Source of the DNA: Branchiostoma floridae
Taxonomy: Eukaryota; Chordata; Leptocardii; Amphioxiformes; Branchiostomatidae
Direction of reading: 5' to 3'
NCBI RefSeq assembly: GCF_000003815.2
Contig: NC_049986.1
Location: forward strand, 17,866,457 to 17,930,456
Length of the DNA stretch: 64,000 nt
The notes beneath the pieces were generated by a model. That model saw only the letters and a list, made by a program, of their open reading frames with translations. It made no database searches and had not been told where the DNA came from. This document shows, piece after piece, positions 1,732 to 61,325 of this stretch (position 1 is the stretch's first letter; every line of letters starts with the position of its first letter). Position numbers and translations under genes: made by a program.

Positions 1732-1987
1732 TTAAGTCGGTTTGATCATCATCTTAAGGTCCACCATGTCCACAAATGGCATGCCTGGGGCATAGCTGCG
1801 GAGCCATTGGCCCAGAGCATGTATGGATGCCCACCACCCAGGAACATCAGGCTCCATCCTTCTATCCGCGGTGACGAACGGCTGTCCGTCGTACATCTCC
1901 AGGATGTTGCCAGCATCGCCCTCCATGAAATCCCCCAGGCTCAGTCGGTAGCCTTCTTCTTCATTCCCAACACGGAACATTGTATGA
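1732..1987 (-). CDS. FIBCD1-like gene, coding exon 8: end of fibrinogen-related domain, stop
   Basis: Encodes FRVGNEEEGYRLSLGDF and GWWASIHALGQW and ends DLKMMIKPT. FRVG-x-E-x-x-YRLSLG and MMI(R/K)P are fibrinogen-domain hallmarks. The calcium loop, normally TKDRDND-like, reads TADRRMEPDV. The Cys normally before GGWW and the Cys normally just after it are both absent. Confidence 0.9.
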
Positions 1988-25578: not shown

Positions 25579-26377
25579 ATGCTAAGTCCACGGACTAAGA
25601 TCAGTGATCAAGCCAGAGGAGCCTCCGACGGATCACTGAGATCCCCAAGACGTCAGACACAACGGACGAGAGAGACTTCTCCAAGGGCCCCTTCTCCTTC
25701 TGTGGCACAAGAACAAAGGAGACACGTCACATCGCATTCAAGACCTGTGTCTGCCAAACGGCCAAGCTCTGGATATGCGAGACGAACTAAGACAAAGGCT
25801 AGACCGTCGAGCAGTCGTAGTACTGCCAACCACAAGAGAAAAACAAAGACCTCTTCCGACGGAAATGCCTCGACGAGAGCCGAAAGTCCACGAATCTCAA
25901 ACGACAAGCTGACAGTGCCTGACCAATCTAAAGTTTCTCCAAGATCTGGAAGTGAAAGGCCCAAACTTCTCCCGTACATGTTCACTCAGGAGTGTGGAAT
26001 ATCGCCTGATCTTCATGATTTACAATATCTCCCTTCCCCTAGCCCAAGAGACAACAAGACCGAGGAGAAAGCTCCAGCTCAAAACAAGATCTCTCCTCGG
26101 CTACGGCATCATCGCACGTCCTCCAAAACGTCGACAACATCGCAAGGAAAAGGGCGAGAGAAAACCACCCAACGACACGTTCACTACTTTCACAAGTTGG
26201 GCTCCATACCGTGCCCCGCCGGTCTGACCATAACGGACAGTCTATCCCCACCCCGACATCTCAGTCCCTGCTGTACCGCAGACGAACCAGTAGACGAACC
26301 GTGTGGTCTCGTCAAGGACTTGATAACCCCGCTGCGGCGATACCCGTACTGTGAAGTATGCTGTGGGAACGGCACTG
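25579..26377 (+). CDS. Paralogue A, exon 1: basic Ser/Pro-rich N-terminal region
   Basis: 799 nt from ATG to the donor GGCACTG/GTAACT. The frame stays open for only 8 nt past the donor, so it can look like a complete 268-residue gene; the paralogue shows that splicing continues here. Many SPR/SPS/RRTK motifs suggest phosphorylation by proline-directed or basophilic kinases. LLPYM, TQEC and YCEVCCG are the segments shared with paralogue B. Confidence 0.8.
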
Positions 26378-29300
26378 GTAACTAAATTCAATAATTGATT
26401 TGGTTTGTTTTATTCGGCTGTATAAAAAGACATACGGCCAGGGCTACCCAACTAGACAGAGGCTATCACAAATGGCTAGCCCTGGTAACTGCACAATAAG
26501 CGATACAAACGGTTACAATGCACAGTAGATGCGTTTACAGATACACAGTTTTACGTACTAAGATATACAAGTAATACAGGGAAATATTTTCGGTCTTTTC
26601 AATCGGCCATTGTTTGCTTACTGAAATAACAACAGTACTGTCTGTGATAAAAGCACTGTTCCAAGCAGATGTAGGGTCTGGCTCAGTGTATCGGGGTAGG
26701 GCGAAAACGGGAATAAAATTGGAAATGTCAAATACGACTGAAATACTAAACCGAGCCTTACGTCTTCTTGGAGATTACAGGTGACAAACTAACTTGATTT
26801 GATACTGACATCTGCTATGTTGTATCTCTATATCTTTATAAGGTTAAGGTTACAATGTCACTTTGTGTAGAAACTGGAAGCACATAAATCTGTCACCAAC
26901 ATGCATCATCATTTCCTATTAGAATATCACTCTACCTATTGGCAGTAACAATTGACCTAATGCCTGCCTGCACATCCCTGACTCAAACAAACAAACAAAC
27001 GTAACGTAACGATTCTCAAAGTCTCTCGACTCTCGACAAGGTAATGTACACTCTTATTGTTCAACAATGACGAAGAGGTCACTGGTCCATAACCACGTAA
27101 GAGTATAAAAGCCCACTTCTTCTCAGATTCCCTGGCCAGCCTCCAACAGCGTAAAGAGAGAAGAGAACATCGTGAGCAGCCCTGGACAGAGGACACGCCG
27201 GAATATGAGGACCTGCAGTGGAAAATAGGTCAGAATATCATCGTTCATGTCGACGTCTATCTTTAATCCACAAATAAAGATAGAAAGTACCAGACGAGCA
27301 CAAAAACATTTTAAAAAGTAGAATGAAGCATTTTGATGTCTACATAACCCTTAAAGAGGGGTTCACATGTGCGTATATATTCAAGTCCGTATGAGGTCTG
27401 TGTGGAGTTTTTAGCCTCTACCAGGTTCTTCAGGTCGCTAAGAAAATGCTAGTACTAGAAATTGGACAAATATTAATGCATAACATGCCAGAGGAGTTAG
27501 CTGGCCAAGTACTGGTTTGCGACCCAGCTGAATCGTTTGACATAATATCTGGCCATATATGGCAAATTTCTATTATTTTTTCAGCAACCTATGGAGCCTG
27601 GTAGAGGCTAAGACTTTCATACGGCATTATACGGACCTCATACGGACTTGAATATACATGTATACGCACGTGTGAACCCACCTTTAGTGTACACAATACC
27701 AGCATTGGATATCATATCTGGTTACAGCCGATGAACAGGCCACTTTGTTAAACTCGTTGTTTCGGCACAACACATTTCTGAGTAGCCAGCCATGAATGAG
27801 GTGTCGTGTAACAATTTATGCGCTAGATTATTCCCGGGTGACGAGATACGCCATGCCATTTCTGCATCGTGTTGTTGCGTTATCGTCTTGATATTTCATC
27901 CACTAGAGTGGCGACCTTGGTACGACCGCGCTGCGACCTTCGACTTGGCATTGCGCTATACGAATTTCACAAAAAGATCTTTATATGCTTTGTGTCTTTT
28001 GTTGTCTTTTCAGCAGTCACATTTTACATTTTGTATAATGGCCCAATCATAAATTCAGGGTTACACACATGTAATTTAGGTCGCAACCGTCCAATTAAAT
28101 AAATGGAATGGGGATATACAGCAGTATTATGCTTGAAGGAATTTGATAACGTTACGGTCTATTCGCTAGATAAATCCAACTACTTCCTAGGAGGTGATAA
28201 CACTTCACTTACAAGTGTACAAATAGATAAATATATCAAAGAATGTTTCAACCTTGTAACCAATAGTGTAAATGATATTCTAGACTCAACATGTTGAAAG
28301 ATAATTCTATTTTGTTTCCACAGTGAATGAGCTGCAGCTGAATATCGATAACTACAAGGGAGACATCGTTGACCTCCGCTGGAAGGCTGAACAGATCCAG
28401 GAGAGGGCGGACCTGGCCACACATGGCGCGCTCCCGCCGCCAAGGGTAGTGGTGAGTCAGTTCTGTGATAACACAGCTACACGGCAGCAGCAACATACAT
28501 TATTTTTAAGTTTACCTCTCCCCGTTTCTTCCACGTCCTCTTCGTATGATCCAAACAATAAAGGACATTGACCCGCTGTTTCAGTAGCAGGGTATATTTT
28601 ACAGGAAGGGGTTGCTACCTCTTCCCCCTTAACGTATTTTCAATTTTAACTCTCCCCGCTTCTTCCATGTCCTTTTTTAAAATTAAGGACATAGACCTGG
28701 ACCAGACGTTTGTTGTGGTTTGTGGTTTGTGTGTTCGGTGGTTTTCCTTAGCACTGCAACAGAACTACAGGTTTTTGTATTTTCGTATGTACGTTTGGGG
28801 GTTGGGATGGAAATCAGCTCTTTGCATATATTACAATGGAATTCTTGAAGCCTGAAAACTAGACGAGAAAGCAGGCTGAATCAGTATTCTCAGTGGATGA
28901 CTGAGTCATAGTGGTACAAACATGCCAACAATCTCGTCGATGAAAACACAGGGTCTTCGCTACGTGTTATTTATCACTACCCTGGGGCACTATTATGCAT
29001 AATGTTTGCGTGCTATTTTGTCTTCCGTTAACATAATAAACGTTTCTCAATGTCAAAATTTGACTATTCCTTTCTTCCTGTTGTATGTCATGCAATCATC
29101 TATGACCTTATTCTTTTATACAAAACAATTAATTTTGCCTGTAATAACAGCATACGGAAAACATCCAACCTTTGTCATGAAAACAGACGTAAACGTGTCA
29201 AATTTTATTGTTTGACCCGGGAAGTCAAGGACTTTAGGAAAGGTTCGCCTAGATTATAGTCACTTATTATCTAAACATTGAATTCCCAAGGGAGATATGA

Positions 29301-32300
29301 AATGAACCCCTGGTGTAGGTTTTATTTGTAGCAATCAGCTCCATAATAATGTCATGTCACTGTAGATAGTTTATTATCAAAACACAATGAGGTATCTTAA
29401 TTGATGCAAGGTTTTCTCTTAGGTCTAGAAATGCCCCTTGTTCAATATCTTGCCACTACTGTTGAACGAAAACGGCAGAATTTGTAAGCAAATGACATGT
29501 TTAAATACATTCATTTTCTAGTACAAGAAACTACTGCCCTGTTTATTCTTTACCAAACCATCCATATAATATGTGACTTGTCCCTTAAAGCTCTGTCCTA
29601 CCACTTGGTACATAATGTAATCACCACAGGATTGCAACAGCACCGAGTGAAATCATCAATGAAAGCTCCTTGGTATGCGGTATCACAAAGTCTACATGTA
29701 TGTGACTGTCCTTTCATGTGGTAAGACTTATACTATGTTGTTGCAGCTGATCTCCTCCTCCGTACCAAAAGCCAAGTTTCTGCCCCTGACCGTAAAGAGT
29801 GACCCCGCTGTTCTGGTGGTCTCCTATGTAAGTATCTCAAAGTTTCGGTATCGAATCCCTGATCAATTCAAGTGCTGTGCCCTTAGGATAACCACTATAC
29901 ACCTATTCCAGGAGACTCAGCAAAAGGGATGTGTTTGTTTGTTTGTTTATTGTTTATTTCAGGCACCATGGCCCATACACAGCTACAGTATAAACAACTT
30001 AAAAACAATAGTACCTAGCTTCGGTTAGTGACGTGCTGTCGGATTTAATGTACAACCCCGAAAGTCCAGGACTTGAAGGTGGTAACACCTCGAGCACGTT
30101 AAGAACCACACTTATCGAAAAGAGTAAAGGCCCATCTCGATATGAGTGGATTAAGCCTTACAATCTGGTCATATGCAGCATTCGTCTACTTTTGAAAACC
30201 AAACAAACATAACAAACAAACATGCAAGCAAAGACACTCCTAAGAACAATAACTAAAGAAAATAGAATACAACCCACAATAAGAGCGGTAAAAATTCAGG
30301 TCATGAAAATTAATAAGAAAAGTTTCAATTGAGATTTAAATGTTATCAACTATCAAATTGTTATATTGGCTTCTAATTCCTTTCATCTATTGCAGGACCA
30401 CCAGAATGACAGCTTTGACAAAATCCTGGGTAAGGTTTCCATCCTGTTTATCTGTTTTCAGTCTTTCTCATCCCTGACCCAATGGTCAAGGAACGTAACC
30501 ATATTTCAGTTTATACATTTATCCGTACATGTCACTTTTACCGCACAGTCTTGTCGAGTATGGCTTTATTGAAAGTTCAGGTCATCAGGTCAATGAACCC
30601 TAAAATCGCGCAATGATCGAGAAAGCTGTAACACCAGCCGTATTACTACCGAAAACGTTGTTTGTATCTCGCACACTCGTCGTCCGATCGATTTTCGCAC
30701 GATGCGACATGGGTATTATTACGTTCACCATCCGTACACCAGTCTCCTCCAGATACGCCACAAAGCAGTTACTCAAGCAACTGGATATGATTTTGGAAAT
30801 GGTCAGACGTTTCAGATAACATCCACTATCTTTTGTCAGTGACATCAAAGTGATCTGGAAGAAACTGGTCTTTTATACCCTAATTATGAATGCAAAAGAG
30901 ATGAAGACAATTTTGGGTGGAAACAATAGGAAACTAGATAAGACAAAAGTCAAACTGAAGTTGGCTTTGTCATAAGTGGAAGACGTCTTGAGGAAGGTGA
31001 GGGACGGACTGCGCTTTAAAACATCATCTGGGAGAGAGCACACATCTGGGTGCCAGGAGAGATGATTAGCAAAAGTGTCATCACTGAGCATCACATGGCC
31101 AGCCATGCGCCAGGAGGCACAATTGCCAAATCATATAGGTGGAAAACATGTCTGGTCGAAGGGCTTTTCTATACTGCCATTCACGCTTACTTATTCAATG
31201 TTCCTGTTATTCACAGGTGCTGTACAGAGCAAGTTGATCAGCTATTGTCCTGGGTGCAAGGCTAAATCTTTGCTTTTGTATATCAAGGTAAGACCCTAAA
31301 GGCTGCAATGAATTGATTTTCTCGAAGACATCCGCACGCATCGATTTTGCCAGTTTACAAGAGGGAGAAACGCTATCATGCTACACCATCATCTAAAACA
31401 GGACAACGCACTTCCGAAAAACAAAACAAGTATAGAAGTTGAATTTTACTTTGCTGCACCATCCCCATTTCTGCAAGGCAATGACTCTTTTCTGCCATTT
31501 TATTTTTCAAGCTAGTCTTTACAATTACCGCCGCCCCATATAGCGAAGTAATTGGCACCCTATATGTAGATACCAATCATTCGGCCAACAAAACAATCTG
31601 TCTTGAGCAACTATCTGGTCTCCGCAACTACTTTTAGGACAGACTACCTGAATGGCTGCTGAAACCAGGTTTGAATGTATGTCAAGGCCATTGGAATAAC
31701 ATTTTGTGGCCAGGTGTTCAACATTTTATCATGTAAAATAAAACGGTTCAGTAAAATATCAAAGTTATCAAGGGAAAGTGGACTATGTCATGTATCTCTA
31801 ACGATAGTTCACCTTTATTCGCGGGGTAATCTATATCCGTTGTACCTAAAAACAGGATATTGAGGGATATCACGTTGATGGACGGTGGTGTCAAATTGCT
31901 TTTTTTTCTCAATATGATGCAGTTTGAAACCTCCGTCCGTCAACTTGATATCCCGAAATACCCTGGATAACTATACAACGGATAAAGGTTACCCTGCGAA
32001 TAAAGGTGAACTAGCGTTACGTGTATACATGAATATAGGTGGCGCTTTTAAAGATTTTCATGGTGCTAACTGGGTTCATTACATGGCGTCAAAATATCGA
32101 TTCTTTTACACCGATCGGCGTTTTTAAAAGTCTTGAACTTCTTTATGTATTTGATTTGAATTCGATTTGAAGACGTTTGGACCTAACTGGGAGTGTTCGT
32201 GGTAGCTATAAGCTTACGATATATCCACATTTTTCCATTTTGGTAGGACATTCCCTATGACAGCCCAATGTGCAGTACCTCTCCCGTCCGCAGCTAGAAA

Positions 32301-34846
32301 AGTGACAAAGACGACCGTCAAAAAAGCGAAATTTCTGTCTTTCCGTGAATGGAGAAACAGTGAAAGACTCGCAAAGAGCTTTGAATTTTATAGGCTTATA
32401 TGGATTTCCTTTTACAAAAGTAACCTTTTAGAATAAAGAATGACATGCAATATCTAAGACATTTCACAAAGAAAATAATATCAGTGGGTCAAAAACGAAA
32501 TGTTCCTTACGCATTTTGCCAATTTTGAACGTGAATTGTTCACGTCCGGTAGATTGTAACGCTCAGACGGTGAACCACATACAAATTTGATTCGTATTGT
32601 TGTGAGACAAACTAACGTTAAACAACAGATAGTGTGTTTCTGTTTGATTGTCCATGCATTAATAGATCCAATATTTCTTTCAATATACCGCGAAGTGTGT
32701 GGATTACTTTGCAGTGCAATATAATCTTAGGCGCCAGGGAGAGCTGCTTGTTGGACTGAATTGGTGTTCTGATAACAAGACGACACAACCATATACCACG
32801 AAAGAACATGAAAATATGATTGTTTGTTTGTTATATCGCGTTGTGTGTCGCTCCAGTTTCGGGGCGTCTTGAATATGATATCCATAAAATCAAAGCTATG
32901 TGGCAGCTTTTGACTCGTACAGACGTAGAAAGTCTTCTTCATTGATATGATTAAACTTATAATGCAGCTTTTTTTTATTACTTAACCGAGTCCTTTCTTC
33001 TTCAGGGAGGCCCCGCTCATCTGTACCTGAAGAAAAACAAGGTGACAACAGTCGCCAAACTGAAGAAAGAAGGCAGTGAGGACATGGTTTGGTAAGAACA
33101 GATTATAACGTTAAACGTTTCAGTCCGTAAAGTACCAGGATGGATATGCGTAACAATCCGTTTCTTCTTATCGAAGTTTTAAACAAAAAGTGCAGCTAGA
33201 TGTGCAAAGGTTAGGTCGTTCAGTGTAACGTAACCCGAAGCTGCCGCGCCACTTGGCTGCGAAGCTGGTGTGAAATTCAATCATTACAACCCTTGCAGCG
33301 TCAATCAAGTAATTCATTTTGCGAAAACTTCTTCAGAACTGTTTTCATCACGTTGGTAAATTACTCATAGTGTAAGCTTAAGGTTCTTCAAAGACACAAC
33401 CAGAATTGTACTCACTTCCAACGTTTCGATGTCTATCAGAAACAGACCCAGTCATTCACCCTGATGATGATGTCAGATAGACATCGAAATGTTGGACACA
33501 GTGAGTACAATTCTGGTTGTGTCCTTGAAGAACCTTTCTATATATATGTGTGTGACACCGATTTTCCTTCTGTAGGTTCTGGAAGACACTGGGAAGTCTG
33601 ATGAGTAAACTGGAGCCTGACTCCACCGTCATACACATCATGGGCTGTAACGTCATGGGGTATCCCAAATATGTGGGCATTGATGTAAGTATTTGACTTC
33701 GATTTTTCCGATAGTTTCCTACCTTAATACGTTTTGTATCTGTGTTAGAAGCTATCAATAAACTGCACCAAATGCACCAGGCATTCGCAAAGGAACGCAA
33801 CCGGCGCCAATTGGTACAATTCGATTCGTCAACTAGAATTAACATTTACATTGCGAATTTGAAAAATTTCGCGATTCGCAAAAAAGCCAAAAGCTATGCA
33901 ATTTATATAAATATGCTCCGCAATGCATCATAAATAAACTCGCAAAGGTGGCACACATTCCTAGCGCATATTTTATCGCAGTCCAGTAACCAGCTTAAGT
34001 TGTTGTTCCACCTCTCTCCCCAGCTGTTTGAGTACTTACAGGAACTGATGAAGCCTTCCATTGTTAAATTCGAGGCTCCATTGGAGGTTTCCATTAAGGG
34101 TGAGTAGGACCGTTGTACTTTGCCATTGACCAAATATGTCAACAGACATAGGAATGCTATGTTTTTCTCAGAACGTTTATGAAGACCTCCGGGTGAAGAA
34201 TATATGCAAGGACAATGTAATATCTACTACTGGATAAGACTAAAAGATTATTTCCGTACTCTTCTTCAGCGTCACCCAGAATGATTTTTAGAATTCGTTC
34301 ATGTCCGAATCTTAATGCAGTTGTAGAGATTGTTTCTTGGAACTTTTAGAAATAGGAAATATCAAACTGAGATAACAGCATGGGGAGTAGGCTCTATATG
34401 GCATGGACGATAACATTACTGTCAAACCTGCCCAAGAACAGGTCACCATAGACAAGATTCGTAATGCTTATGTCCAGTGTCAAAGGAAAAAAAAGCTATC
34501 CAAGGCACCACCAAAAAGGTGGTCTTTATGTGTAGGTGATCACTTATACAGGCTTTACGTACTGTAGTTGAATGTGTGTCAAAACGGAAAGCATGTATTC
34601 ATATTTAAGCACAGTGTTTCTTCTCTCAAACTTTTTTCCTATCTTCTTTCATCTTCAGGTAACGCTATAATAGGGAGTTACTTTGACAGAAACAAGTACA
34701 AGCTGTGGAAGTCCCAAAAAAACTCCAACAACTTAGAAAAAGTGTTTGGGCTTCGATCTTCGACATCAACATCAAGAGCAACGTCGAGAGTTGCTATGGT
34801 ACCAACAATTACAAGCTGTGGAAGACGTACCGATACTCCATCTTAA
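25579..34846 (+). CDS. DUF4347-like (caspase-fold) domain protein, paralogue A, 10 exons
   Basis: Exons: 25579-26377, 27127-27228, 28324-28451, 29747-29827, 30396-30429, 31217-31287, 33006-33091, 33576-33684, 34024-34099, 34659-34846. All are GT-AG and phase-compatible, giving 557 residues. Residues 1-266 are a basic, Ser/Pro-rich disordered region ending in a Cys cluster (YPYCEVCCGNG). Next is a charged helix (QQRKERREHREQPWTEDTPE) and a NELQLNIDNYKGDIVDLRW helix. Residues about 344-500 resemble DUF4347: strand VLVVSY, DHQNDSFDKIL helix, GGPAHLYL, strand VIHIMGCNVMG (Cys458), LFEYLQELM helix. In DUF4347 the loop before GGP-like residues carries His; here it is Lys405. Function is unknown; a pseudo-protease or scaffold role is inference. 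Its partner at 37.3-45.3 kb has the same eight internal exon lengths. AATAAA motifs lie at 35069 and 35176. Confidence 0.85.
27353..27690. mobile_element. MITE with GGGTTCACA(T/C)GTGCGTATA inverted ends
   Basis: The left GGGGTTCACATGTGCGTATA and TTCAAGTCCGTATGAGGTC are inverted at the right (GACCTCATACGGACTTGAA, TATACGCACGTGTGAACCCA). Lies in intron 2 of paralogue A. Confidence 0.7.
28573..28640 (-). mobile_element. Second-family SINE fragment
   Basis: TTCAGTAGCAGGGTATATTT, TACAGGAAGGGGTTGCTACC and CTTCCCCCTTAA match the 3' end of the copy at 25.31-25.36 kb. Confidence 0.6.
30030..30225 (+). mobile_element. SINE 3' part
   Basis: ACGTTAAGAACCACACTTAT, CGAAAAGAGTAAAGGCCCAT and a tail with AAACCAAACAAAC match the 3' half of the SINE at 12.03-12.42 kb. 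Lies in intron 4 of paralogue A. Confidence 0.65.
30766..30865 (+). repeat. Dispersed repeat with GGTCAGACGTTTCAGATA core, copy in paralogue A intron 5
   Basis: GCAGTTACTCAAGCAACTGG, then ATTTTGGAAATGGTCAGACG and TTTTGTCAGTGAC. Related copies are at about 34861-34960 (+), 38284-38385 (-) and 41532-41635 (+), all within or beside the paralogue pair. Confidence 0.7.
31801..32020. mobile_element. Fold-back MITE, TTCACCTTTATCCG family, best-preserved copy
   Basis: Left GATAGTTCACCTTTATTCGC and right GCGAATAAAGGTGAACTAGC pair nearly perfectly. Inner arms ATATCACGTTGATGGACGGT and CCGTCCGTCAACTTGATATC also pair. Lies in intron 6 of paralogue A. Confidence 0.8.
33391..33528. mobile_element. Fold-back element, ACGTTTCGATGTCTATC family, copy 2
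   Basis: GACACAACCAGAATTGTACT pairs with AGTACAATTCTGGTTGTGTC, and CAACGTTTCGATGTCTATC with GATAGACATCGAAATGTTG. Lies in intron 7 of paralogue A. Confidence 0.75.
33576..33684 (+). CDS. Paralogue A, exon 8: GCNVMG motif exon
   Basis: 109 nt, identical in length to 38244-38136 of paralogue B. It encodes FWKTLGSLMSKLEPDSTV and IHIMGCNVMGYPKYVGID. The hydrophobic strand followed by G-C-N-V resembles the catalytic-cysteine strand of DUF4347 (typically LLYGCNVA). Confidence 0.9.
34659..34846 (+). CDS. Paralogue A, last exon with altered C-terminus
   Basis: Encodes GNAIIGSYFDRNKYKLWKSQ, then NSNNLEKVFGL, where paralogue B stops. Here the frame runs on through RSSTSTSRATSRVAMV to a TAA at 34844-34846. 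The extra tail comes from a partial duplication of the same exon read in another frame. Confidence 0.75.
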
Positions 34847-35015
34847 ATAGACCATATAGCAATAACTCAAGCGGCTACTGGATATGAGTTTGGAAATGGT
34901 CAGACGTTTCAGATAACATCTGTTATCTTTTGTCTTGACGTCAGACACTGAAGGGATCGTGTTGGAGAGTAACCTAGATAGAGTGTTCGGACTTTTATCT
35001 TCAACCTGTATATTT
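34775..35015 (+). pseudogene. Broken extra copies of paralogue A terminal exon
   Basis: A second copy of the terminal motif (NYKLWKTYRYSILNR) is readable in the +1 frame at about 34805-34855. A third piece, ESNLDRVFGLLSST, lies at about 34962-35010. A copy of the dispersed repeat also seen at 30.77, 38.3 and 41.5 kb (about 34861-34960) separates them. The remnant of the original end matches SNLDRVFGL of paralogue B. Confidence 0.65.
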
Positions 35016-35284
35016 TTTCAAGTTGTTTTATCCAATCTTTATCAACTAGGTGTTGTTCGTATCTTGATAATAAAATCACGAATATTAGATCGATGACTTG
35101 TTGAAATGTCTGTCTTTCCTTGATTGATAAACTAGACTAAGTATAAAACTATAATAGTGTACTATAATCTTACAGAATAAAGACTACTATTGAAAACAAG
35201 CTTTCTAATGATACTCCATACTATATAATTGGTAAGTAACAACGGAGAAATGATCAAATTTACTTTTCCGAACTGTTTAGAGAG

Positions 35285-35286
<2 letters not shown>

Positions 35287-35321
<35 letters not shown>

Positions 35322-35335
35322 GCACAAACACACAC
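35287..35335 (+). repeat. (CA)n microsatellite
   Basis: About 16 uninterrupted CA units, then CTCACGCACAAACACACACA. Confidence 0.95.
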
Positions 35336-35696
35336 ACTCCCTGTCAGTAAGGCGAGGGGTCTGACGTGTTTGCACGTAAATGTGGAGGCTTTATGGCAGC
35401 TTGTCAAACATCGCCTTTGATGCAGGCCATAAATGACAGATTTGTGAACACTTGACATCAGATAAAGTTCACCGTGTCATTTACTGTGTTGTTTCTCTCC
35501 TTGTCGCCCCTATATACGTAAAGGTCAAGGTCTGACACACTAGAGTTTTATGGATGGCATTCACGGTGATACACGCAATGCTTCCAGTCTGTCCTATCGC
35601 CAAGACGAGATGTTCGGACCTTCAATGAACACAGCAAACCATTCTACAGTAAACACCATTAAAAACCTTTAACAGTATAATAGCAGTAAAGGGAAG

Positions 35697-35900
35697 GTGG
35701 CGTCAGATGGCAGAGTGGCTGGGCAAGCGGAGAGGAGATTGAGAGTTCAGGGGTTGATTATTGACACTTTTGGCTAGAAGTTGTGCCCTTGGGAAAGGCC
35801 CTTTACATGACTTCACCTAGGTGTAAAAGTGAGTACCCGAATTTGATTGCGGGGGATAAAATGCAATCAATGGCATTTCAAGTCATGAGGACACAGACAC
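35697..35900 (+). mobile_element. tRNA-derived SINE downstream of paralogue A
   Basis: Box A TGGCAGAGTGGCTGGGCA, box B GAGTTCAGGGGTTGAT, and core TTGGGAAAGGCCCTTTACAT. Confidence 0.7.
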
Positions 35901-36679
35901 GAGGAAGGTGATTATCATCGTCTAGCTGATAATTTTTTCCTTTTCTTTATCTTAAAAGAAACATTCAGTTGATTGATGCAATATCTTTTAAAAGATCTCA
36001 AGACGATTCTTTCATTTTATGCTTTTATCAATGTTGATTCCTCTAACGTTAGTCAATTCGAAAGTCATAGAAGCTGTGAATGAAGAATCTATTGTTCTCT
36101 AAACCATACACTATATGTTTAGTCATTTGTTCAACCTTCCTGACCTCTTGAATTAATGAAGACAACTTTATTTTGGTAAACTTTATTTTTCTACATTATT
36201 ACTGATCATGACATCTTAAAATGGTTCTATTACATACTGTACAAGTCAGGGGTGTCAAAGATTGTTTTAAAAGAAATGATGAAGCTTGGAAGTTATAGCA
36301 ATTAGAGGGAAAGGAAAAGAAATGGCAACAGGGGTTGACATAAATTCTAACTCCCCCTGAAACATGCAAAATGTTCTAGACTAAAGACCATACAGTCTCA
36401 ATCACATAACAGATTTTTATACAGAACAAGTGAATAATATTATCAAAATTGACTATGTTGACTAACTTTTGACACAGTAACTGCTAATATAAAAGTATTA
36501 ACAATGTCATAATCTAAACAGTATACATTTCATTCATGAGATGCATAAATTCTGGTTTTCTTGACTGAACTTTCTGTAAAACTTAAACTACACATCTACA
36601 GACTTTCTCAGAGTTAACTTGTTAAGTTTTTTTTTATCCTACTGCTATGCAAACAATGATGATAATGATGCATGATATA

Positions 36680-36900
36680 ACGTTAGTTCACCTTTATCCT
36701 TGGGGTGACCTTTATCCGTTGTCTTTAAAAACAGCACATTGAGGAGTATTAAGTCTGCGGACAGTGCTTTCAAATTTGCAGTATTTTCAAAATGTTCTGA
36801 TTTGAAACCACTGTCTGGTGACTTCATATACCTAAATACGTTTTTTTCTTACAAACAACGAATATAGGTTACCCTCGGATAAAGGTGAACCAGCGTTACA
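36680..36900. mobile_element. Fold-back MITE, TTCACCTTTATCCG family, between the two paralogues
   Basis: ACGTTAGTTCACCTTTATCC at the left is inverted as GGATAAAGGTGAACCAGCGT at the right. It occupies the spacer downstream of both convergent genes. Confidence 0.75.
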
Positions 36901-37285
36901 TGTAAGTAACCTAAAGGTGTGACACTGACAGGTTGAAGGTAGCCTGGAGTCCAGCCTTATTGTGCTTTTAGTCGCTCCCCAAAGGTCCGCTTCTGCCAAT
37001 GTTGGTTTGGTGAAAGTAAACAAAAATGTTCAATTGAAGGCCTTATATGCTATGCTAGATATACTACAAACTTTTAAGGCAAGTTCTCACCAGTTTTTCT
37101 CTCCTGTAGATTGTGCTGTAAGTGGGTGTTTAAGTCTGCAATATTCAAATGGCTACAGGAGTCACATACATGCATCAAGAAAAACTGGCATATTATGGAT
37201 GAGAACTTGACTTTGTGGTATATTCAGCATAGTATAGTAGAGTTTTCAACAGGACCTTTTTGTTTCATTTTGCAACAGTTGAAGC

Positions 37286-40200
37286 TCAGAGTCCAAACAC
37301 CCTGTCCAGGTTGGAGTATCTCTGGGACTTCCACAGCTTGTACTTGTTGGTGTCAAAGTAACTGTTAATGACAGCATTACCTGTGTGGAAATCAAACATG
37401 GAAACAAAATCAGCATCATGAGAAAGTGGTAGGTTTTAGACAATTCATTTATCACATATTCAGGTACATGACTGTTATGATATATTCTACAGTGATTTAT
37501 GATCTTTTTTACTGAGTGTGCATTTATTGAAAAGGATACTTTTTGTAATATTTGATTTTCATCTCTGCTTAACATATCTTAAAGCAACCTTTACTACAAA
37601 ATGTCAAATGGTACTTCTGTCATTTTATCAAATGATTCTTCTTTCCACAGTTAAGTCAAGGCTTTCCCTTTGTAGAAAAAAGGATACTTACCCTCGATGG
37701 ACATTTCTAGTGGAGCCTCAAATCTAACAATGGATGGTTTCATCATCTCCTGCAAGCACTCAAACAACTAGGGGGGCAAAGGAAGAACTCTTTTTAAATC
37801 AAAGGCTACTCTATTTCAACACCATAAGTACTCCCTTAATCTTGAAATTAGCAAAGAACATCACTGTATGTACATTAGGAAGGAAGAGTTTGAAGATCAA
37901 ATGCCTCCATGAAATCTTAAGAGTTTCTTGTATGTGCTGTAAAATTGTAGTTCTTTAAGCATGCAAATACCTTTTCATTTAAATTTCAACGATTGACAAG
38001 TCTTCAACCAACCTAGAGATAGAAAAGATGTTTGGAATTTTGCAAAATTGGCAGAAAAATCCATTTACACCCTGAGTATATTATATACTATGTATCAGAA
38101 GAAAGGTTAAAAAATGTAGTGCAGACTATACTTACATCAATGCCCACATATTTAGGATACCCCATGACGTTACAGCCCATGATGTGTATGACTGTGGAGT
38201 CAGGCTCGAGTTTGCTCATCATGTTCCCTAGTGCCTTCCAGAAACTGTGTATGACAAATAGAAGGGAGTATCAACACTAAGCAAAGATATGACTCAGTGA
38301 CACTGACGAAAGATAGTGGATGCTATCTGAAATGTCTGACCTTTTCCAATATCATATTCAATTGCTTGAGTAACCGCTTTTTGGCATATCTTATTACCTG
38401 GATGTCTAATCTTCATTGAAGTATCAAGACACTAGTTCATCTTTATCTGTGGGGTAACCTACATTCGTTGTACCAGTTTGTACCATGTATGTAGTGCAAC
38501 CCGCCAATCAGCACCAAGGACAGTTATCACCAAATTGTGTGCAAGAAACAGGAGAGTATCAACTCAGGTTCACCTTTATCTGAGGGGTGACCTATATCTG
38601 TTGCATTAGTTTCTACAACGTATGTACTGCAACCAACCAATCAGCACCAAGGACAATTATCACCGCCCTTCCACTCAATGAAGTTGATGGACGGTGGTTT
38701 CAAATAACACTAGAACACTGCATGAAACATATAATGCAGTTTGAAAACATCATCTGTTGAATTGATATCCCTGCTTTTATATACAGCAGTTATAGGTTAC
38801 CCTGCATATAATGGTGTAATAACTAGTGTTATATCCAGGCAAAATTAATGCATGAAGATTAGGGCCCTCTCCCATATTGACCATCATTATCTGGATCACA
38901 AGCATTCTCAATGGACGTATTTCAAGGACACATTCAAGTAACATTCATTTGTTACAGCACAGTGGGAACAATCGATGTTTAGTAACTTGTAAATTGATAG
39001 GTCAAGTTCGTCTACACATCACAAGTTCCTTTAAAGTTCCAGAAGTTCGTTTTTTCTGTCCTTACCAAACCATGTCCCCATGGCCTCCTTTCTTCAGCTT
39101 GGCGACTGTCGTCACCTTGTTTTTCTTCAGGTACAAGTGGGCGGGACCTCCCTGGGGAACACATTCAAGATTTCAGAAGACTGAAAATTCATGGTGAGTG
39201 AATTTTGTCATGTTGAAAACAGTACAATACACATGTTGTGGCCCTCATATGTCATAAGACATAGACATTACATTAATACACTGAGTAGCTTGTGAATCTG
39301 AGACATGGAATACAGCATAAAATATCAAATATTGTCTTAACTATGTAACATGCATTGGCATAATACCGGTAGTAAGACTTATACCGGTAGATTAAAAATA
39401 CTGGAACTTAAAGAGATCTACACATGCAACAATAGTTATTTCTGAGCTGTGCACACTTCAGACATCTAGGTGTCCAATACATCATTTACAAAGCATCGAT
39501 AACAATGCATTCGAAGACAACAAGGCCAAAAGTTTTCAGTATCTTTTTCGGGGTAGGCAGCTCGTCGTGGGACGAACACACTGTCACATTCATTGCCAAA
39601 TTTATAGATCATAATTACACATGCTCACGGCACAAGACGAACATGATTCAACAACAATCTTGAATTTCTGTTGGTGACCTACAACTCATGTAAAAGTGTG
39701 AAGAACCGTTGCATAATAGCCCGGATCTACGACTGAATGGGCAAAATTGAACGTACGCAGCCATTTTCCCGCCATTTTTATATCTACGCTAGCAGTGAAG
39801 TGTTACGTCATAGCGGTTGTGACGGACAGAAGTTAAATGAAAATTCTTGACAGTATACGTCCGTTTTCTCATGACATTTTGTATGCTCATGCAGGTTTAT
39901 GTTTTATGCATTTACTGACAGAAAAGGAAGGAACATCAGAGGATGTATAAATGTACATAGCGGCAGTTAATTGTTCCGTGTTTCTTCCTACCGGTATTTG
40001 TTACCCCCTCCCAACCACGCGCCTGTTCGCCGTGTAATTCCGTGGCGTGTTACAATTACAATATTACGCTTTTAGCAGGACAAGAGTGGCAAAAAAGTTA
40101 CACAGAAGAAGTGGCAAGGGTAACCTATAACAGCAACATGTAAGTGGAGAAAATGATGCGTTGACAATTTGTCAAATCAGCATGGCTAGAGAAATCGTCG

Positions 40201-43200
40201 TAAACGTACCGGTATTATGATAATAGATGTTAACAGGCAGTCCAATCAGACAGTCTCTGCTGGAAGGCTCTCTGACTTTAAGCTTGTTCTAAATACTGAG
40301 GTAGTTGATTCCAGATATGGTCTGACACTGGAGTGTAAATTTCTTTGTGTTCAGGAACAGAATTGTGCAATTATGGATTCTATCATCACAGATGAGCAAC
40401 TTTAATTCAAATTTCATGACTTACTTGCATGTACATCAGCAATGACTTAGCCTTGCATCCTGGACAGTAGCTAGTCAACTTGCTCTGAATAGCACCTGTA
40501 AATGACATAACATTAAGCAGCTCATGATGAGAAATTGTTGTGGGAAGTGTGACAAGAATGTGTCTTGGAGAAATTTACAATATGCAATATCTATTGTGTT
40601 CAAACTCTGCAAACTGTCATTGAAAAACCAAAACAGAAATTTTGTTAAATCCTTATTTATTCAAATCACATTGATTTTATGATATAGTTCTATGTTCACA
40701 CAATGAAAACATGGTAACAAAGGCTGTACATTGCTGAGGATGCATTTTTCATAAGCTAAAAATTGCTCACAAAGTGTATAAGAAGAAAACAGATTTGAAG
40801 AGCTGAAAACTTACTCAGAATCTTTTCAAAGCTGTCGCTCTGGTGGTCCTGAAATAACAGATATTTCAAATACATATATAAATTTTATAATACATGTATT
40901 TACTAAAGCAATGGGATATGCTTTTGGAACAAATTTGCCTCTTTGACTTTTCTCATATCTACTGTATACTTGATATTTTCGGTTCTTATGTGAGAAATGT
41001 CTACAGTTATGAGCAAATATCTTGTTTTTCCAATGTACAAGACTGTTTCACCACAACAAGCTGCTAGCTGCCAAGAGGCCTGAAATCTAATAATTCTCAG
41101 TCTCATCAAGACCTTCCTACATACCAAATATCAATACAATCAATCCTGGCCTTCACAAGTTATTGCTGGTCTTATACAAACACACACACACAAACACGAC
41201 CACCACCCAAAATATAACCTTCTTGGTGAAGGTGATTAGAAACAAGTGATGAGTAGGATACTTACATAGGAGACCACCAAGACAGAAGGATCTTCCTTCA
41301 CAGTCAGGGGGAGAAACTTGGCCTTTGGTACAGTGGAGGAGACCAGCTGCAGGGAGAATGTACAAGAAGGTTAGAGTGAGAAGTGGTCTTGATATTTCTA
41401 GCTTTGAGGTTATATTCCACTGACCGTGATACAACAGACACTCCCAGCAGGTATGTGCAAATTCATTGTGCTTGGAAAGTTCCCCTAACTCATTTTCACA
41501 AGTACAGTGGACTGGAGCTAAACATCCCCTACGTCAACAAGCAGTTACTCAAGCAGCTAGATATGATTTTGGGAATGGTCAGACGTTTTAGATAGTATCC
41601 ACTATCTTTTGTCAGCGACACTGAAGAGATCTAAACAAAATTTGTCATTGGCTTGTTTGTTTGACCCTCTATTTATCAATGACAAGCTTAAATTGACCTG
41701 CAGGCTTTCTACTAAGGTTTCATTTTTCAGCATCCTTGAACATGATGTTCCACATTTTGTTGCACGTAAAACTTCATTCACATATTCTCATTCATAATTA
41801 ATAAATGACATACTACCAGGGCTGCTAAGGCATAACTAATAAGTCTATTGTTCACCTTTTATATGTATTTATTGTCAGTTAAATTACTTGTTTGAATTTC
41901 ACGATTCATCTGCCCTCGATCACCCTTTCATTCTTCAAAGTATGAGTTGATTTTTAAGAATCCTGATACTTTTTCTAAGGAATGGAAATGGTATATCCTG
42001 TATTTTATGACTAATCTTTACTCTATGACATGTTTAAGAATACCAGAAAAGAAAATTTGGGCTCGTCAGAAAAACTACAATGATTGTAAATTTTCAAAGT
42101 TTCATGTTTTTAAGACAAGATCGTCTTTATGCCAGTGAATCCTTAAAAAAATTGTTGACTCTCTTGAGTTAAAGAAGAAAATGTGATTTGCTCACAACTG
42201 CTTTCTATGGTAAGATTGATATTTTCTGATCCAGATGTGGTCACAAACAAGACAAATTGTCTGCCTCTCTCAACAGACATGCTGAACAAAAGAATTATGT
42301 CAAAGATAATTGCATGAGGTACATTGTGAAAAGAATTGTCAGAATTCTGACATTTGGGAAATATTTGTTATGTTCGCAAGGACAATGGCACATAGATTTG
42401 GCAGAACAGTGCCGCAGGGCGATAAGTATAGAATATATGTTACTGTATTGAGGGTTAACATGCAGGAATTTATCATTTCATTTTTTCATTGTGCCGGTAA
42501 AGTTCAGTAGGAAAAGAATTGATGGACACTATTCAGAGGAGTTCATGCACAGAATTTGGGCAAGTTTACAGACTAAAGATATCTGTGGGGGGAAACAGAC
42601 ACTGTTTTTTGCTCAGTACAAAATAAACCCTTTTTCCTTTATAAGAAGACAGGGAGTTTAAAGAAGGAAAACTATGTTTCTGTACTTTTTCACTCAAAAA
42701 CAACTGTTACATCGAAAAGTTAACAAATAATATTGAAAACCTGTAGCTTGGGGATCAAACTACATGTATACAACTACATATGAGTGTAGTGTTAGAATGG
42801 CATTAGCAAAACGCAACTTAGAATTTGTCTCTAATCATATAATAAGACAATTTGGTGCTTACCACAACTCTGGGAGGGGTGAGGAACCCGTGTGCAGCCA
42901 GAGCGGCTTTCTCCTCCAGCTGTTCTCCCTTCCATCGCAGACTGACAATGTCGTCCTGGTAACCATCTATGTTCAGCTGTAGCTCATTCCCTACATAAAC
43001 AGGACAAGTTAACCTTAAATAATGCTGGAAATATTCTGGACAATGAAATAATCAGCTGTAAATTTTGAATTTAGAGGCACATTTTAGCATAACGTTTATT
43101 GTATCATCATTCCATATTCAATGTGTTAATAAACAATGCAAAACAGACTAAGCTTCCATTATTAATTGGTATCACCAAGAAAAACACGCTAGCTTGATGT

Positions 43201-45282
43201 AAACAAATAAAATCAAACAGGCAGTCTTTCTACGGTATGTTGGTAATACATGAGGATACAATGATGTCACAGTTACACTCCCTTATTATTGTTATGCAAC
43301 AAAACAGAGTTGGTTCAACTTAATATGTAAAGAAATGACCAGAAATTGACTTGGGAGACCTATAAATTGACTAGAATTGAAAAAAAAGCAACAATTTCTC
43401 ATCCAAGTTGATTGTAAGACCTAGTTTTTACGTCATAGTTGTCTGTCTATGGGTTTGACGTCATCTTTCAGCTGAATGGGTAGAATTTCTTTGGACCAGC
43501 TCCAGTATTACTTAACAGCCGGGTTTTAAGTAATGTCCACAGGTCACGCACCTTTGGATAAGACTTAAAGATGGCCTTTTGTAAGGGTCTAAACTGATGC
43601 AACACAGCTATGTTTACGTCAATTACTAAAGGTGGCATCTCACTGCTCTTGGGGCACTGGTGTGGCACTGCAGGGCTTGAAAGATTATTTAACGCATTTC
43701 CTTTAACAAAGAATGTAGATATGATGATGTACATTTTTTTCTGGGAATCAGACACAATTCTTTTCCCTAGACCTAAGGCCAATTAATGCTTAATTTTGAC
43801 CTGAAAGGTCAGTTTTTACTCAGTTGGTAACTTTCAGAGTATAGATTTTATCTATAAATGACCATGATGATTTCTATTGTCATTTTCTTAAAAAAAGAAT
43901 GTAGATATGATGATATACAATCCTGTACTAACCTATTTTCCACTGCAGGTCTTCATGCTGTGGAGTGTCCTCTGTCCAGGGCTGCTCACGATGTTCTCTC
44001 CTTTCCTTACGATGCTGGAGGCTGACCAGAGAGTCTGAGGACAATAGACAACAACCATAATCTTAGACATTCCTGCAGTATAGATATTGAGTGATCTCAA
44101 TATATCCGGACTAGCTTGTCTAAGAGTTCACAAAGTGGCTGCCACAGTAGTTTTGTGCATAGTACAGTGGTTAGTGACCCTGCCTCTGGACCAAGAGGTT
44201 GACTGTTTGGAACAACAGGTATTTCAAAAGCTGTAAGCAGCTTTTCTCAAGACATCTGAGAGACGTTTTCAGAACATTGATATGACAATTATTCCTTGTA
44301 TGGTAAGCATTCCCTTGTAATTGTATTGTATGGTTGCATAAGTATGCATTAACCTATTGTGCACAATTCAGCATCTTCTGCTGTGCAAAAGATGCTGCAA
44401 TGTATTTTAGTGTTCATGCACTTCATAGATTGAACCTATAAATCAATTATTAATTACTGATAGCAAGACTTAGTCCTCCTCCCAAAAAACTGACAAAGAC
44501 AATATACAACCTAACAAGCACACTCTTGGAGGATGTCTCAAAAAGTCAAGGAAAACATGATTTTTGAGCATGTACATTTTGTATCAGCGCATCCTTTCAA
44601 AGACATTTCCTACCCGTAATGTTACACTGACAAGGACGCATTTAGGATCATGTTTCTTTTTACCTCCATAACAACAGCAGACAGTACAGTAGGTACGTTG
44701 TGAAGACTGCAGAGAATTCTCAAGGTGCAAACACTCCACATCTTCTGGAGTTAACTGCACTGATTTCTCCTCAGGAGGGATTACATGACAGTCAGGAGAG
44801 ACTTTGCTTTCCTCCGGAGTTTGTTCCTTGTCCTTGCTGTCCCTTGGGCTGACTGCAGTGAGGAACTTTGTCTCTGGAAGAGGAGACAAACTCCTGCACT
44901 CCGGTGTATCCATGTAGGGAAGCAGGTTTCTACATCCTAGCGAGGATTGAGATTGTTGAGGCATGGCTTGTTTGGCCTTTGCAATCCCCGGACTGGGAGA
45001 TCTAGGAGAAATAATCTTCACTGGGGAAGTCTTTGTCCTTCTGCTGAAGTGCACTGAACTCCGACAGCTTGGAAGTCCTGCCTTTGAGTTTGTTTGCTTC
45101 GTGCGTCCTCCTGGCCTCGGGCTTGGTGCACGTGGAGTTGCAGATTTTGGCCTTGAGCGCAACGAACCGCGCTTCCTTTGTTCTCGAACCACAAGCGGGG
45201 AAGACTTAGGAGAAAGATCCCTTGAGCGGGCCGCCTGACATCTTGGAGTAGGAGTTCTCGATCTTGCTTTAGAACTTGACAT
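37286..45282 (-). CDS. DUF4347-like (caspase-fold) domain protein, paralogue B, 10 exons
   Basis: Exons: 45282-44664, 44034-43933, 42990-42863, 41346-41266, 40848-40815, 40495-40425, 39151-39066, 38244-38136, 37767-37692, 37380-37286 (stop TGA). They give 466 residues. Internal exon lengths 102, 128, 81, 34, 71, 86, 109 and 76 equal those of paralogue A. The start is ATG at 45282; an in-frame TAA lies at 45312-45310 with no ATG between. Residues 1-206 are Ser/Pro/Arg-rich and end YCTVCCCYGG. The C-terminal domain reads LVSSTVPKAKFLPLTVK, VLVVSYDHQSDSFEKIL, YMQGGPAHLYLKKNK, IHIMGCNVMGYPKYVGID (Cys398) and ends YSNLDRVFGL. The His position of DUF4347 is Gln345. The gene is convergent with paralogue A, about 2.4 kb apart, implying inverted duplication. 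Function is unknown. Confidence 0.86.
38136..38244 (-). CDS. Paralogue B, exon 8: GCNVMG motif exon
   Basis: Encodes FWKALGNMMSKLEPDSTV and IHIMGCNVMGYPKYVGID, nearly identical to paralogue A. The junction with exon 7 gives Cys where paralogue A has Trp (MVC versus MVW). Confidence 0.9.
38284..38385 (-). repeat. Dispersed repeat with GGTCAGACGTTTCAGATA core, reverse copy
   Basis: CACTGACGAAAGATAGTGGA, CATTTCAGATAGCATCC-like sequence and CAATTGCTTGAGTAACCGC read on the minus strand as the same unit. Lies in intron 7 of paralogue B. Confidence 0.65.
38431..38830. mobile_element. Enlarged fold-back MITE with internal tandem duplication
   Basis: Same family ends, but the left arm occurs twice (TTCATCTTTATCTGTGGGGT and TTCACCTTTATCTGAGGGGT), each followed by CCAATCAGCACCAAGGACA. 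Lies in intron 7 of paralogue B. Confidence 0.65.
41532..41635 (+). repeat. Dispersed repeat with GGTCAGACGTTT core, upstream of paralogue B exon 4
   Basis: GCAGTTACTCAAGCAGCTAG, then GGGAATGGTCAGACGTTTTA and CTTTTGTCAGCGACACTGAA. Confidence 0.7.
44155..44225 (+). mobile_element. SINE head fragment
   Basis: TAGTACAGTGGTTAGTGACC and GGTTGACTGTTTGGAAC match box A and a decayed box B of the copy at 62.35 kb. Intron 1 of paralogue B. Confidence 0.5.
44664..45282 (-). CDS. Paralogue B, exon 1: basic Ser/Pro-rich N-terminal region
   Basis: 619 nt, ending in phase 1 at TATGGAG/GTAAAA. It starts MSSSKARSRTPTPR. Shared with paralogue A are EQR, SRP-x-SA, RRTKTS, LLPYM, SPRD and the CC-containing end. 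It is 60 residues shorter, so the region tolerates indels, as disordered segments do. Confidence 0.82.
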
Positions 45283-52400: not shown

Positions 52401-55400
52401 AACACATATCTTCGCCAAATAAACAATTTCTATGGAAGATAGTTCTTTTTGAATGATTAATGTGTATAAGTCCATATGTTATCTAGTCACATCATGTAGT
52501 GGTTGGTTGGATTATGAACATTGTGAGTAGATTAGTCTATTCTGTCGGTGTACATAATGCAGCAAATCTTTTGGCGATGTGAATGAATGTCTTTGCATAA
52601 TCAGAACAATTTGTACAGGTATGAGGTTACTGTTCTATTTTGTGTTGTCATAATTACTTTCGGAGAGCTGGTTATGTTTTGGGTAGCGTTTGTATGTATG
52701 TATGTATGTATGTATGTATGTATGTAGAAACCAGCAAATTGAAGACCGGCTGAATGGATTGAAGTGATATTTGGTATGTGGGTAGGTCTTGGAAACCTGG
52801 AAACCACAGGAAGTCACGCCGATAATTGCATTCGTCACTCACCAAACCTCGGCCACTGTAACAGTTGTTCCTTCCAATTTACGGAACTTTTTAACTCACC
52901 AAGGGTCATCTAAGGGCCATATGTAAGGATTGCTACGACCCCCGCCTTGGTGAACGTTTGTTTCAATCTCATGAAAATAGAAAGTAAAGTTTTGCAGTCG
53001 CGAGTTAAGTCAGAGGTATTTTACAGAGTCCAAGGTTATGATTTCTGCGACTGTCCGATGACAGCCGCCTGTCACCTTTGGCGATTTGTATTTCTCGCAA
53101 TGATGTCAGTTCTTTCTAGCCGACCTTTCCCTTACAACATGACATCTCTGTTAAGAGTTGAGGAATGCGTGGATAATTGACGGTGACCCTTTTGACCTAA
53201 GTGCTGTTCTTCAACATGTTGGGTTTGTCTTGTCCCAGCACTTGGTCACTTGTTGTTTTAACCTAGTTCACAGATGTAAGTACTATGTGTTACAAGCCGT
53301 CATTGTTCAATTATGTTATATTACTGACTTTACATAGTACTTATTCGTTTGTTTAGACCCATGTAGTGTTACTGGCACATGGAACACCAAGTTTCCTTGC
53401 AGTCCATCATAAGAAAATACACCTGAAGTGTCTCGTAGATATTAGCTCTACATCTTTATATCAAGTGATATTCGTCAAGTTCCCTCTACTACATTTTTAC
53501 CGTTCCCATGATATAGTGTTGCTTTTATTGTTGATCTGTATATAGATATAAGCAACACTTGTATATAGATATGTTATATTTCAACTGCTATGAATCCTTT
53601 GCTGTGTGCCGTCGTATTGACATCAATTCAGCAAGCTATTTAATTGCTTAATTTTATAGATACGTGTTGGACACGGTCAGGCTTTGTATTTTGCTAACAT
53701 GAACCATGACCATTTATAGGCATTTTTCAGCCAGTAGTCTCTACCAGACTCCATCCTGGCGGAATAGTACACGGATGACCTAGTAACATCCCTGGTCAAT
53801 CAGAATTTCATGCCTCCAAGACAACGTCTGTTTATCAGGGAGCCCCTGCTTCCACTGGCTCCTTTGACCTACTTTATTAGACTATTTTTAGACATGTATG
53901 GGTCGATTCAAGTCCTTTCAGGTGACTCCGTCACAAGTATTTTTCAACCGTTATAGAAGTTTCCCTAAGTAATTATATTAAATACAGAGTGATTTATATA
54001 ATTTGCATCTCATTATGTTGATAATCATCCAAAGTACCTACCTACCAAAAACAAAAAATATCCATCAATCCCCTCAGGAGTTATCCATCTAAAAAGTTAC
54101 GAAATATAACACCCACTGCAATTCCAAACAAGCTGCTAGGGGGCCCAAAATTAGACCATTGACTCCTAGTACCAACAGCTATCCACCAGTAAAAAATCAC
54201 GAACCTGGCACTTCTGGAAAATTTAGGCGCAAACTTTGATGCTCACTTGCAGTACCAAAACAATTTGCCAGGAGGCCCATTATCGAACTTGACCTTCCTT
54301 TCTGTGTCCCCTACCTATCAACCAAATATCATTAACATCCATCAAGAACATCTCGAGTTATCTTGCTTACAGACAAACGCACTTACATACAAAGCCAGCT
54401 ACAGCACCATAGGTAAAAGGTAGCTAAACCATTCTCGCACATGGCAATCCTTTCCACAGCCGCTACAGACCTGCCAAATATCGTGGAAATCGCCCAGCTA
54501 CATTTTGACTTATGCCTCCCGAAAAAACACCAAAAAAAATACCAAGCTCGCTAATGTACCATAGGAAAACGCCAGGTAACCCATTTTCGAACTAGGCATG
54601 CCTTTCAACAACCGCTACACACCTGCAAAAAATAAAAAAGTTCCATCCACAATTTCTCGAGTTATATCCTGTTGACCTACATACAGACCCAAGTCGGCAA
54701 AAACATAAGCTTCTTGGCGAAGCTAATGACTCGGTAAGAGCAGCTGGAATAAAAGACTTGTTGTCTCACCTTTATTTGATTCTTCATTACCTGGTGGTTT
54801 AGGTGCGTTGCTTGTCACTGCTGAGATGGCACTGAAAATTAAGAAAATTGAAAATTAATTAATACATTTATAATATATCTATTCAGTTTAAATTAGTGTA
54901 GTGAAAAATTGCGAATCTTCCACTGAATTAGAAAGAATGCTTTATACAGACTACAATACAGGTTCAGTGTACCAGAAAATTAAGAAAATTGAAAATTAAT
55001 TAATACATTTATAATATATCTATTCAGTTTAAATTAGTGTAGTGAAAAATTGCGAATCTTCCACTGAATTAGAAAGAATGCTTTATACAGACTACAATAC
55101 AGGTTCAGTGTACCAGAGAAGTTCCTCTTTCAACTGTAGGTACAATGAACAGAAGGCCACTGCTTAAGGAACAAAGCAGGTGATCTAAACACAGGTGAGT
55201 TTCCCACAGGTGCGACAAGAACAGGTAATTCCAGGTGTTAACAAAACAGACTCCACAGCAAACAGAGAAAGGTCCACAGGTCAGGGTACCCACCATAAAC
55301 ATACATGACAACCTGTGTTGTACATAATAACCGACTGTGCTGTTGGCATTTGATGTGATAACAAAGATGAAGGAAAGGTCAGGTTAAATAACTGGGTATA

Positions 55401-60833: not shown

Positions 60834-61325
60834 CTAAGTCCTACCATCTGGCGTGAACCCCTCCCACTGTACCAAGTACTGCACCTTTCCGTCCGGTGTT
60901 ACCCTTCTCGCCAACACAGTGTACTTCTCCCCGCATGCCAACCTTCCTTCCGCCCCAAAATACGAGTTCACCGAAGCCCGGAGGTGCTCCATAGAAATCG
61001 CTGTATCTTTCATACTCTTGATCACCTCAGGTTCGACAATGCTTTCGTCCTCACTCTCGCTTGACGTCTCTACGTAAAGCTCCTTCTTGGACGGCCTTCC
61101 CCGCTTCCTACCCGTGCTCTTAAACTTCTTTTCCACGTTCTTCTTGGGGCGACCGCGCTTGTTTGGCTTCTTGCCCTTCGGAGAGAGGGACCTCCTGTTG
61201 GAGGGGGAGGTGGAGGGGTGGTGTCGGCTGGCCACCAGGTAGCTGCTGCCGGCTGAGGGAGGGATGCTGGAGCAGGAACTTACTGTGGACTCGGACACGG
61301 ACGGTGCACTGCTGGAGCCAACACT
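60834..61325 (-). CDS. MTF2: PCL last exon: AT-hooks and C-terminal chromo-like domain
   Basis: Begins [17 protein letters not shown] after CTCCAG and contains a long Ser-rich linker, then [12 protein letters not shown] and [10 protein letters not shown], an acidic SSESEDES stretch and the final domain. AT-hooks are not a standard feature of vertebrate PCL proteins, as far as I recall. A fold-back element lies directly after the stop codon. Confidence 0.92.

Follow-up and report, generated by a model that had tools for sequence, protein, structure and literature searches.

What kind of domain is shared by two neighbouring genes of Branchiostoma floridae, and what might it do? The genes, here called A and B, lie in a window of 64,000 nucleotides (the whole stretch of DNA that was analysed; contig NC_049986.1 of assembly GCF_000003815.2, positions 17,866,457 to 17,930,456 of the forward strand). 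The C-terminal half of each contains a domain resembling DUF4347 (PF14252). The answer favoured here, with somewhat better than even confidence, is that A and B carry a duplicated DUF4347-like domain derived from clan CD, which has lost its His and now acts as a pseudoprotease binding module. An old tail-to-tail duplication would have given rise to both genes, each with a basic, disordered N-terminal region that leads through a charged linker into the C-terminal domain. This domain and bacterial DUF4347 would share an ancestor resembling a caspase-type (clan CD) cysteine protease. Of the putative His/Cys pair, the Cys is retained, and the His has given way to Lys in A and to Gln in B. The resulting pseudoprotease would be a folded module that binds a partner or a peptide that was once its substrate, tethered by the N-terminal region.

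The gene models were built from sequence alone. Gene A is on the + strand and encodes 557 amino acids, with its ATG at 25579 and its stop ending at 34846. Gene B is on the - strand and encodes 466 amino acids, from an ATG at 45282 to a stop ending at 37286. They are arranged tail to tail with 2.4 kb between them and ten exons each, and read as two intact frames with GT/AG borders at every intron. In the final gene models, exons 5 and 9 end one base beyond the borders first read. An earlier note on this DNA had described convergent ten-exon genes with eight matching internal exon lengths and very similar C-terminal halves, and both descriptions held. The models rebuild cleanly, the internal exons are equal one by one (102, 128, 81, 34, 71, 86, 109 and 76 nt for exons 2 to 9), and identity over the C-terminal domain is 84%. 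The intron lengths are not equal between the two genes.

Exon 1 (25579..26377 in A, 44664..45282 in B) encodes the basic, Ser/Pro-rich and probably disordered N-terminal region; in A, 69% of the first 219 residues are S, P, T, K, R, G, Q or E. In both genes this exon ends in a cluster of Cys residues, YCEVCC in A (~26344-26377) and YCTVCCC in B (~44664-44700), for which a lipid-attachment or metal site is a guess. Exon 2 (27127..27228 in A, 43933..44034 in B) encodes the charged linker in A, and exon 3 (28324..28451, 42863..42990) contains, in A, its continuation and the start of the domain (PPRVV). In A, the first strands of the DUF4347-like domain fall in exon 4 (29747..29827, 41266..41346), followed by exon 5 (30396..30429, 40815..40848). 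Exon 6 (31217..31287, 40425..40495) provides, in A, the strand before the position of the lost His, which is Lys there and Gln in B. The GGPAHLYL loop of A and its strand are encoded in exon 7 (33006..33091, 39066..39151) and the strand of the conserved Cys (IHIMGCNVMG in A) in exon 8 (33576..33684, 38136..38244), followed by exon 9 (34024..34099, 37692..37767). Exon 10, with the stop codon, measures 188 nt in A (34659..34846) and 95 nt in B (37286..37380), giving A the longer tail. Exon 10 of A also repeats part of its own sequence, out of frame, at ~34789-34840; this second copy encodes much of the extra tail and is closer to the exon 10 of B than to the first copy in A.

The two halves of these proteins have evolved at different rates. 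A codon comparison of A with B gave a nonsynonymous divergence (dN) of 0.52 for exon 1, which has thus diverged. For exons 2-10, dN was 0.10 and synonymous divergence (dS) 0.89 (dN/dS 0.11), and for the C-terminal domain dS was 0.79 with the same ratio of 0.11. The lowest dN of any exon, 0.036, is that of exon 8. The divergence of A and B is a lower estimate, as dS was saturated in exons 3 and 6 when computed per exon. The C-terminal domain is under strong purifying selection. From these rates, the pair appears to stem from an old duplication, after which the C-terminal domain was conserved and the N-terminal region changed fast.

The genome search brought up one further relative. With the C-terminal half of A as query, the whole assembly (513 Mb, 431 contigs) listed 17 matches, 16 of which belong to A and B. 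The seventeenth (E 7.4) lies on another contig (C18, - strand; L112:939-2474, the same as L110:418-1953), in an uninterrupted open frame of 511 codons with a DUF4347-like domain and, after it, a protein kinase (Pkinase E 2.9e-67). The best PDB matches of the kinase part are NEK1, NEK2 and NEK7, and its HRD and DFG motifs are present by inspection. No Met precedes the domain in frame, so the gene must start in an upstream exon. The NEK-fused domain begins with PPR-x-x-L-x-SS, as do the domains of A and B, and aligned with A and B above all 5000 shuffles. Having been found through a faint match to A, this domain is biased toward agreement with A. Its match to DUF4347 in Pfam is independent of that resemblance (E 1.9e-4 and 21.6 bits for the isolated domain, under the curated cut-off of 24.6 bits; E 0.0021 within the whole frame). 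When used as the query, the NEK-fused domain was itself the sole match listed for the genome. It had no PDB match by sequence, and none of 24 pattern matches in viral contigs was confirmed; a single plasmid match (E 4), inside a cheR gene, was rejected. Of the two loci, this one perhaps holds the more surprising gene.

The fusion suggests kinase signalling as the context of A and B. Many NEK kinases work at cilia or centrosomes, and A and B might belong, with their relative, to a ciliary or centrosomal pathway. This is the foremost of the alternatives, though an unlikely one, and it is compatible with a pseudoprotease. In its favour, the sole other relative among the genome matches listed is the fusion to a NEK-type kinase, and the N-terminal regions of A and B are basic and Ser/Pro-rich. 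Against it, a + strand scan for RFX-type X-boxes gave 115 loose matches in the window with no perfect one near the start codons; the single perfect match in the window is at 14972.

The relationship to bacterial DUF4347 was assessed with a set of 74 domains. Twelve are plasmid members from 123 records. The cyanobacterial members derive from the best 80 of 108 loci, of which 63 were chosen by hand with no written criterion, mainly omitting near-duplicates, and one was removed for a stop codon, leaving 62. Profile alignment of A and B with this set (hhalign) scored 37.1 over 125 columns, and 150 column shuffles reached at most 24.0. The NEK-fused domain scored 32.2 (shuffles up to 20.1) and all three together 54.4 (up to 21.2), again with 150 shuffles each. 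The fetching motif HGSPGCLY, which includes the His, had been picked through two members whose loop resembles that of A and B. With this motif masked, A and B scored 29.0 against a maximum of 22.9 in 100 shuffles, and all three domains 30.7 against 20.0. With the 12 plasmid members only, the NEK-fused domain scored 27.5 against 18.5 and all three 37.4 against 18.3. These comparisons support remote homology of the A and B domain to DUF4347, with formal family membership failing. By themselves A and B appear to be a modest match, and the NEK-fused link bears part of the weight. Of the earlier assignment to DUF4347, what stands is a remote relation in the proposed register, from Pfam and hhalign. 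The comparison with the Pfam family did return a match for each isolated domain, yet at 14.4 bits (A) and 15.1 bits (B) both are below the cut-off. Relatives of the A and B domain were not found in phages, and 0 of 51 pattern matches in viral contigs were confirmed. Two plasmid matches (E 0.9 and 6) were rejected; one has no annotated feature, and the other falls in arn genes.

For a bacterial member of the family, a caspase-type fold is supported, as the earlier note had proposed. The structure model of a cyanobacterial DUF4347 domain has a predicted local distance difference test score (pLDDT) of 92.5. Among its 50 PDB matches listed, 48 are clan CD proteins by title or by family; the other two are 9qpe itself and a designed protein. 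The model thus supports a caspase-type alpha/beta sandwich of clan CD for the bacterial domain, in line with PMC13323088. By inspection, the model strands fall on the stretches RVVLIS, VLVVSY, LLLYI, HLYL and VIHIMG of A, and the helices on SFDKILGAV and LFEYLQELM. A and B themselves would presumably adopt the same fold.

Clan CD proteases use a catalytic His/Cys pair, of which A and B have only the Cys. Two MAFFT modes agree that the His, which follows the third strand, is kept in the NEK-fused domain and is Lys in A and Gln in B, and that the Cys column, within a GC motif, is Cys in all three. The bacterial His is invariant (74/74), 61 of these being so by selection through HGSPGCLY; it is also present in all 13 motif-free members (12 plasmid and one cyanobacterial). 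The Cys is likewise invariant (74/74) and lies outside both fetching motifs. Around the His, the alignment is free of gaps over 15 residues, SLLLYIKGGPAHLYL in A against SIHIVSHGSPGCLYL in locus L014. The H-G-x-x-G loop claimed earlier is without its His, reading K-G-G-P-A-H in A and Q-G-G-P-A-H in B. The Trp of YKLWKS lands on the C-terminal GG-x-W motif in one alignment, across a long gap. With the His replaced and the Cys kept, the domain likely no longer cuts by the usual mechanism, and in its residues it looks like a conserved pseudoprotease. From the retained Cys, the lost His, the strong purifying selection and the attached disordered basic region, we infer loss of catalysis and an adaptor role.

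A and B could instead be active cysteine proteases whose pair has shifted, the kept Cys being supported by a different His, that of PAHLYL or that of VIHIMGC. A and B agree in the Cys and in both of these His residues, and no exon has a lower dN than exon 8. The paralogues are 84% identical, so most residues agree anyway, and the gap-free loop alignment sets the Lys and Gln on the bacterial His. This alternative is also improbable and ranks second.

Several findings weigh against a disabled DUF4347-like domain. All 74 bacterial domains close strand 1 with Asp, where A, B and the NEK-fused domain have Ser, and, as judged from two sequences, other catalytic residues in A and B are conceivable. 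Besides the sub-threshold scores of the isolated domains, full B matched DUF7808 (E 0.11) slightly ahead of DUF4347 (E 0.14, 12.4 bits). In Pfam, neither full A nor a 166-residue piece of A with the first strand left out matched any family. A profile hidden Markov model (HMM) of the 74 domains gave 11.7 bits for A and 8.2 for B, which beat only weakly the best shuffle at 7.3 (n=10,000; 5406 scored). The fetching motif is present in 61 of the 62 cyanobacterial members, a bias that weakens the support for homology but leaves some of it standing. Once the motif was masked, the NEK-fused domain by itself scored 19.4 against a shuffled maximum of 19.8, one shuffle in 100 reaching its score. Against the 12 plasmid members only, A and B scored 18.2 with a shuffled maximum of 17.2, and another comparison with these members gave P 0.011. 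Scores of about 15 bits arise by chance, as the best whole-genome match to PF14252 is an elongation-factor-2-like exon. In a PDB set, the 166-residue piece of A matched three sulfotransferase chains at E 0.009, nominally equal to the DUF4347 match, over 64 residues behind the Cys.

Some of these results need qualification. The single PF14252 match in the genome, at 15.4 bits, was rejected because its frame is read as an elongation-factor-2 exon; that search listed none of A, B or L110, and is no census. The sulfotransferase match was set aside because none of the conserved loops is covered. The same piece of A also matched an acyl-CoA binding protein at E 1.1. In NCBIfam there was no match for full B, nor for the domain of A or of B.

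Chance resemblance, in which alternating strand and helix patterns imitate DUF4347 with no kinship to it, would draw on the Pfam scores below threshold, the weak plasmid comparison, the sulfotransferase match at a similar E-value, the 15.4-bit false positive and a large bacterial set fetched by a motif similar to A and B. It does not sit well with the motif-masked score of A and B, which beats 100 of 100 shuffles, nor with the NEK-fused domain, which alone reaches DUF4347 (Pfam E 1.9e-4) and aligns with A and B beyond all 5000 shuffles. It appears doubtful, and is placed third. Least probable is an animal DUF4347 regulatory module in which the disabled A and B bind shared partners or the active NEK-fused copy and control it, by analogy with cFLIP and caspase-8.

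Elsewhere in the window, 60834-61436 (- strand) is an exon of a Polycomb-like gene of the MTF2 type (Mtf2_C, E 5.8e-26). A fragment at 1732-2016 (- strand) weakly resembles Fibrinogen_C (E 0.006, under the cut-off; the query frame was slightly wrong at its start). At 54834-55117 a 141-bp unit is duplicated in tandem with 100% matches. The stretches 31799-32025 and 36678-36904 match one another in both orientations, a pattern that copies of a short inverted-repeat transposon would give.

DUF4347 in eukaryotes is not new in itself, as proteins named after it stand in tables of PMC6744689 (snail) and PMC10451321 (Chlamydomonas, a green alga). A pair lacking the His was not found in searches of the open-access literature. 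A DUF4347-NEK kinase fusion and any mention of 'PF14252' were not found there either. If the favoured reading is true, a family with the caspase fold, familiar mainly as a bacterial DUF, is a conserved non-catalytic module in an animal genome that also joins this domain to a NEK-type kinase. One copy with His and Cys and two without His would be a natural comparison, and a handle on the function of eukaryotic DUF4347-like domains.

Bacterial DUF4347 shares with A and B the order of strands, helices and motifs over ~120-145 residues and the Cys of the GC motif, and the match begins at profile position 1. A and B differ in being under the curated cut-off, in the change of His to Lys or Gln and of the first-strand Asp to Ser, and in being animal genes with a disordered N-terminal region and introns; among the bacterial members, several bear annotations as repeat or Ig-like proteins. 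Tce1 (PA0256; PDB 9qpe) is described as a DUF4347 protein in PMC8262886. Unlike A and B, it keeps the His/Cys pair and is a bacterial secretion-system effector. The NEK-fused protein shares the PPR-x-x-L-x-SS start and the domain with A and B, and differs in keeping both His and Cys and in joining the domain to a kinase in one uninterrupted frame. cFLIP-L and other pseudocaspases, according to PMC11121540, have a caspase fold, are inactive through changed catalytic residues and act by binding. They belong to the caspase family proper and are a precedent for regulation by binding, to which A and B may be likened by analogy.
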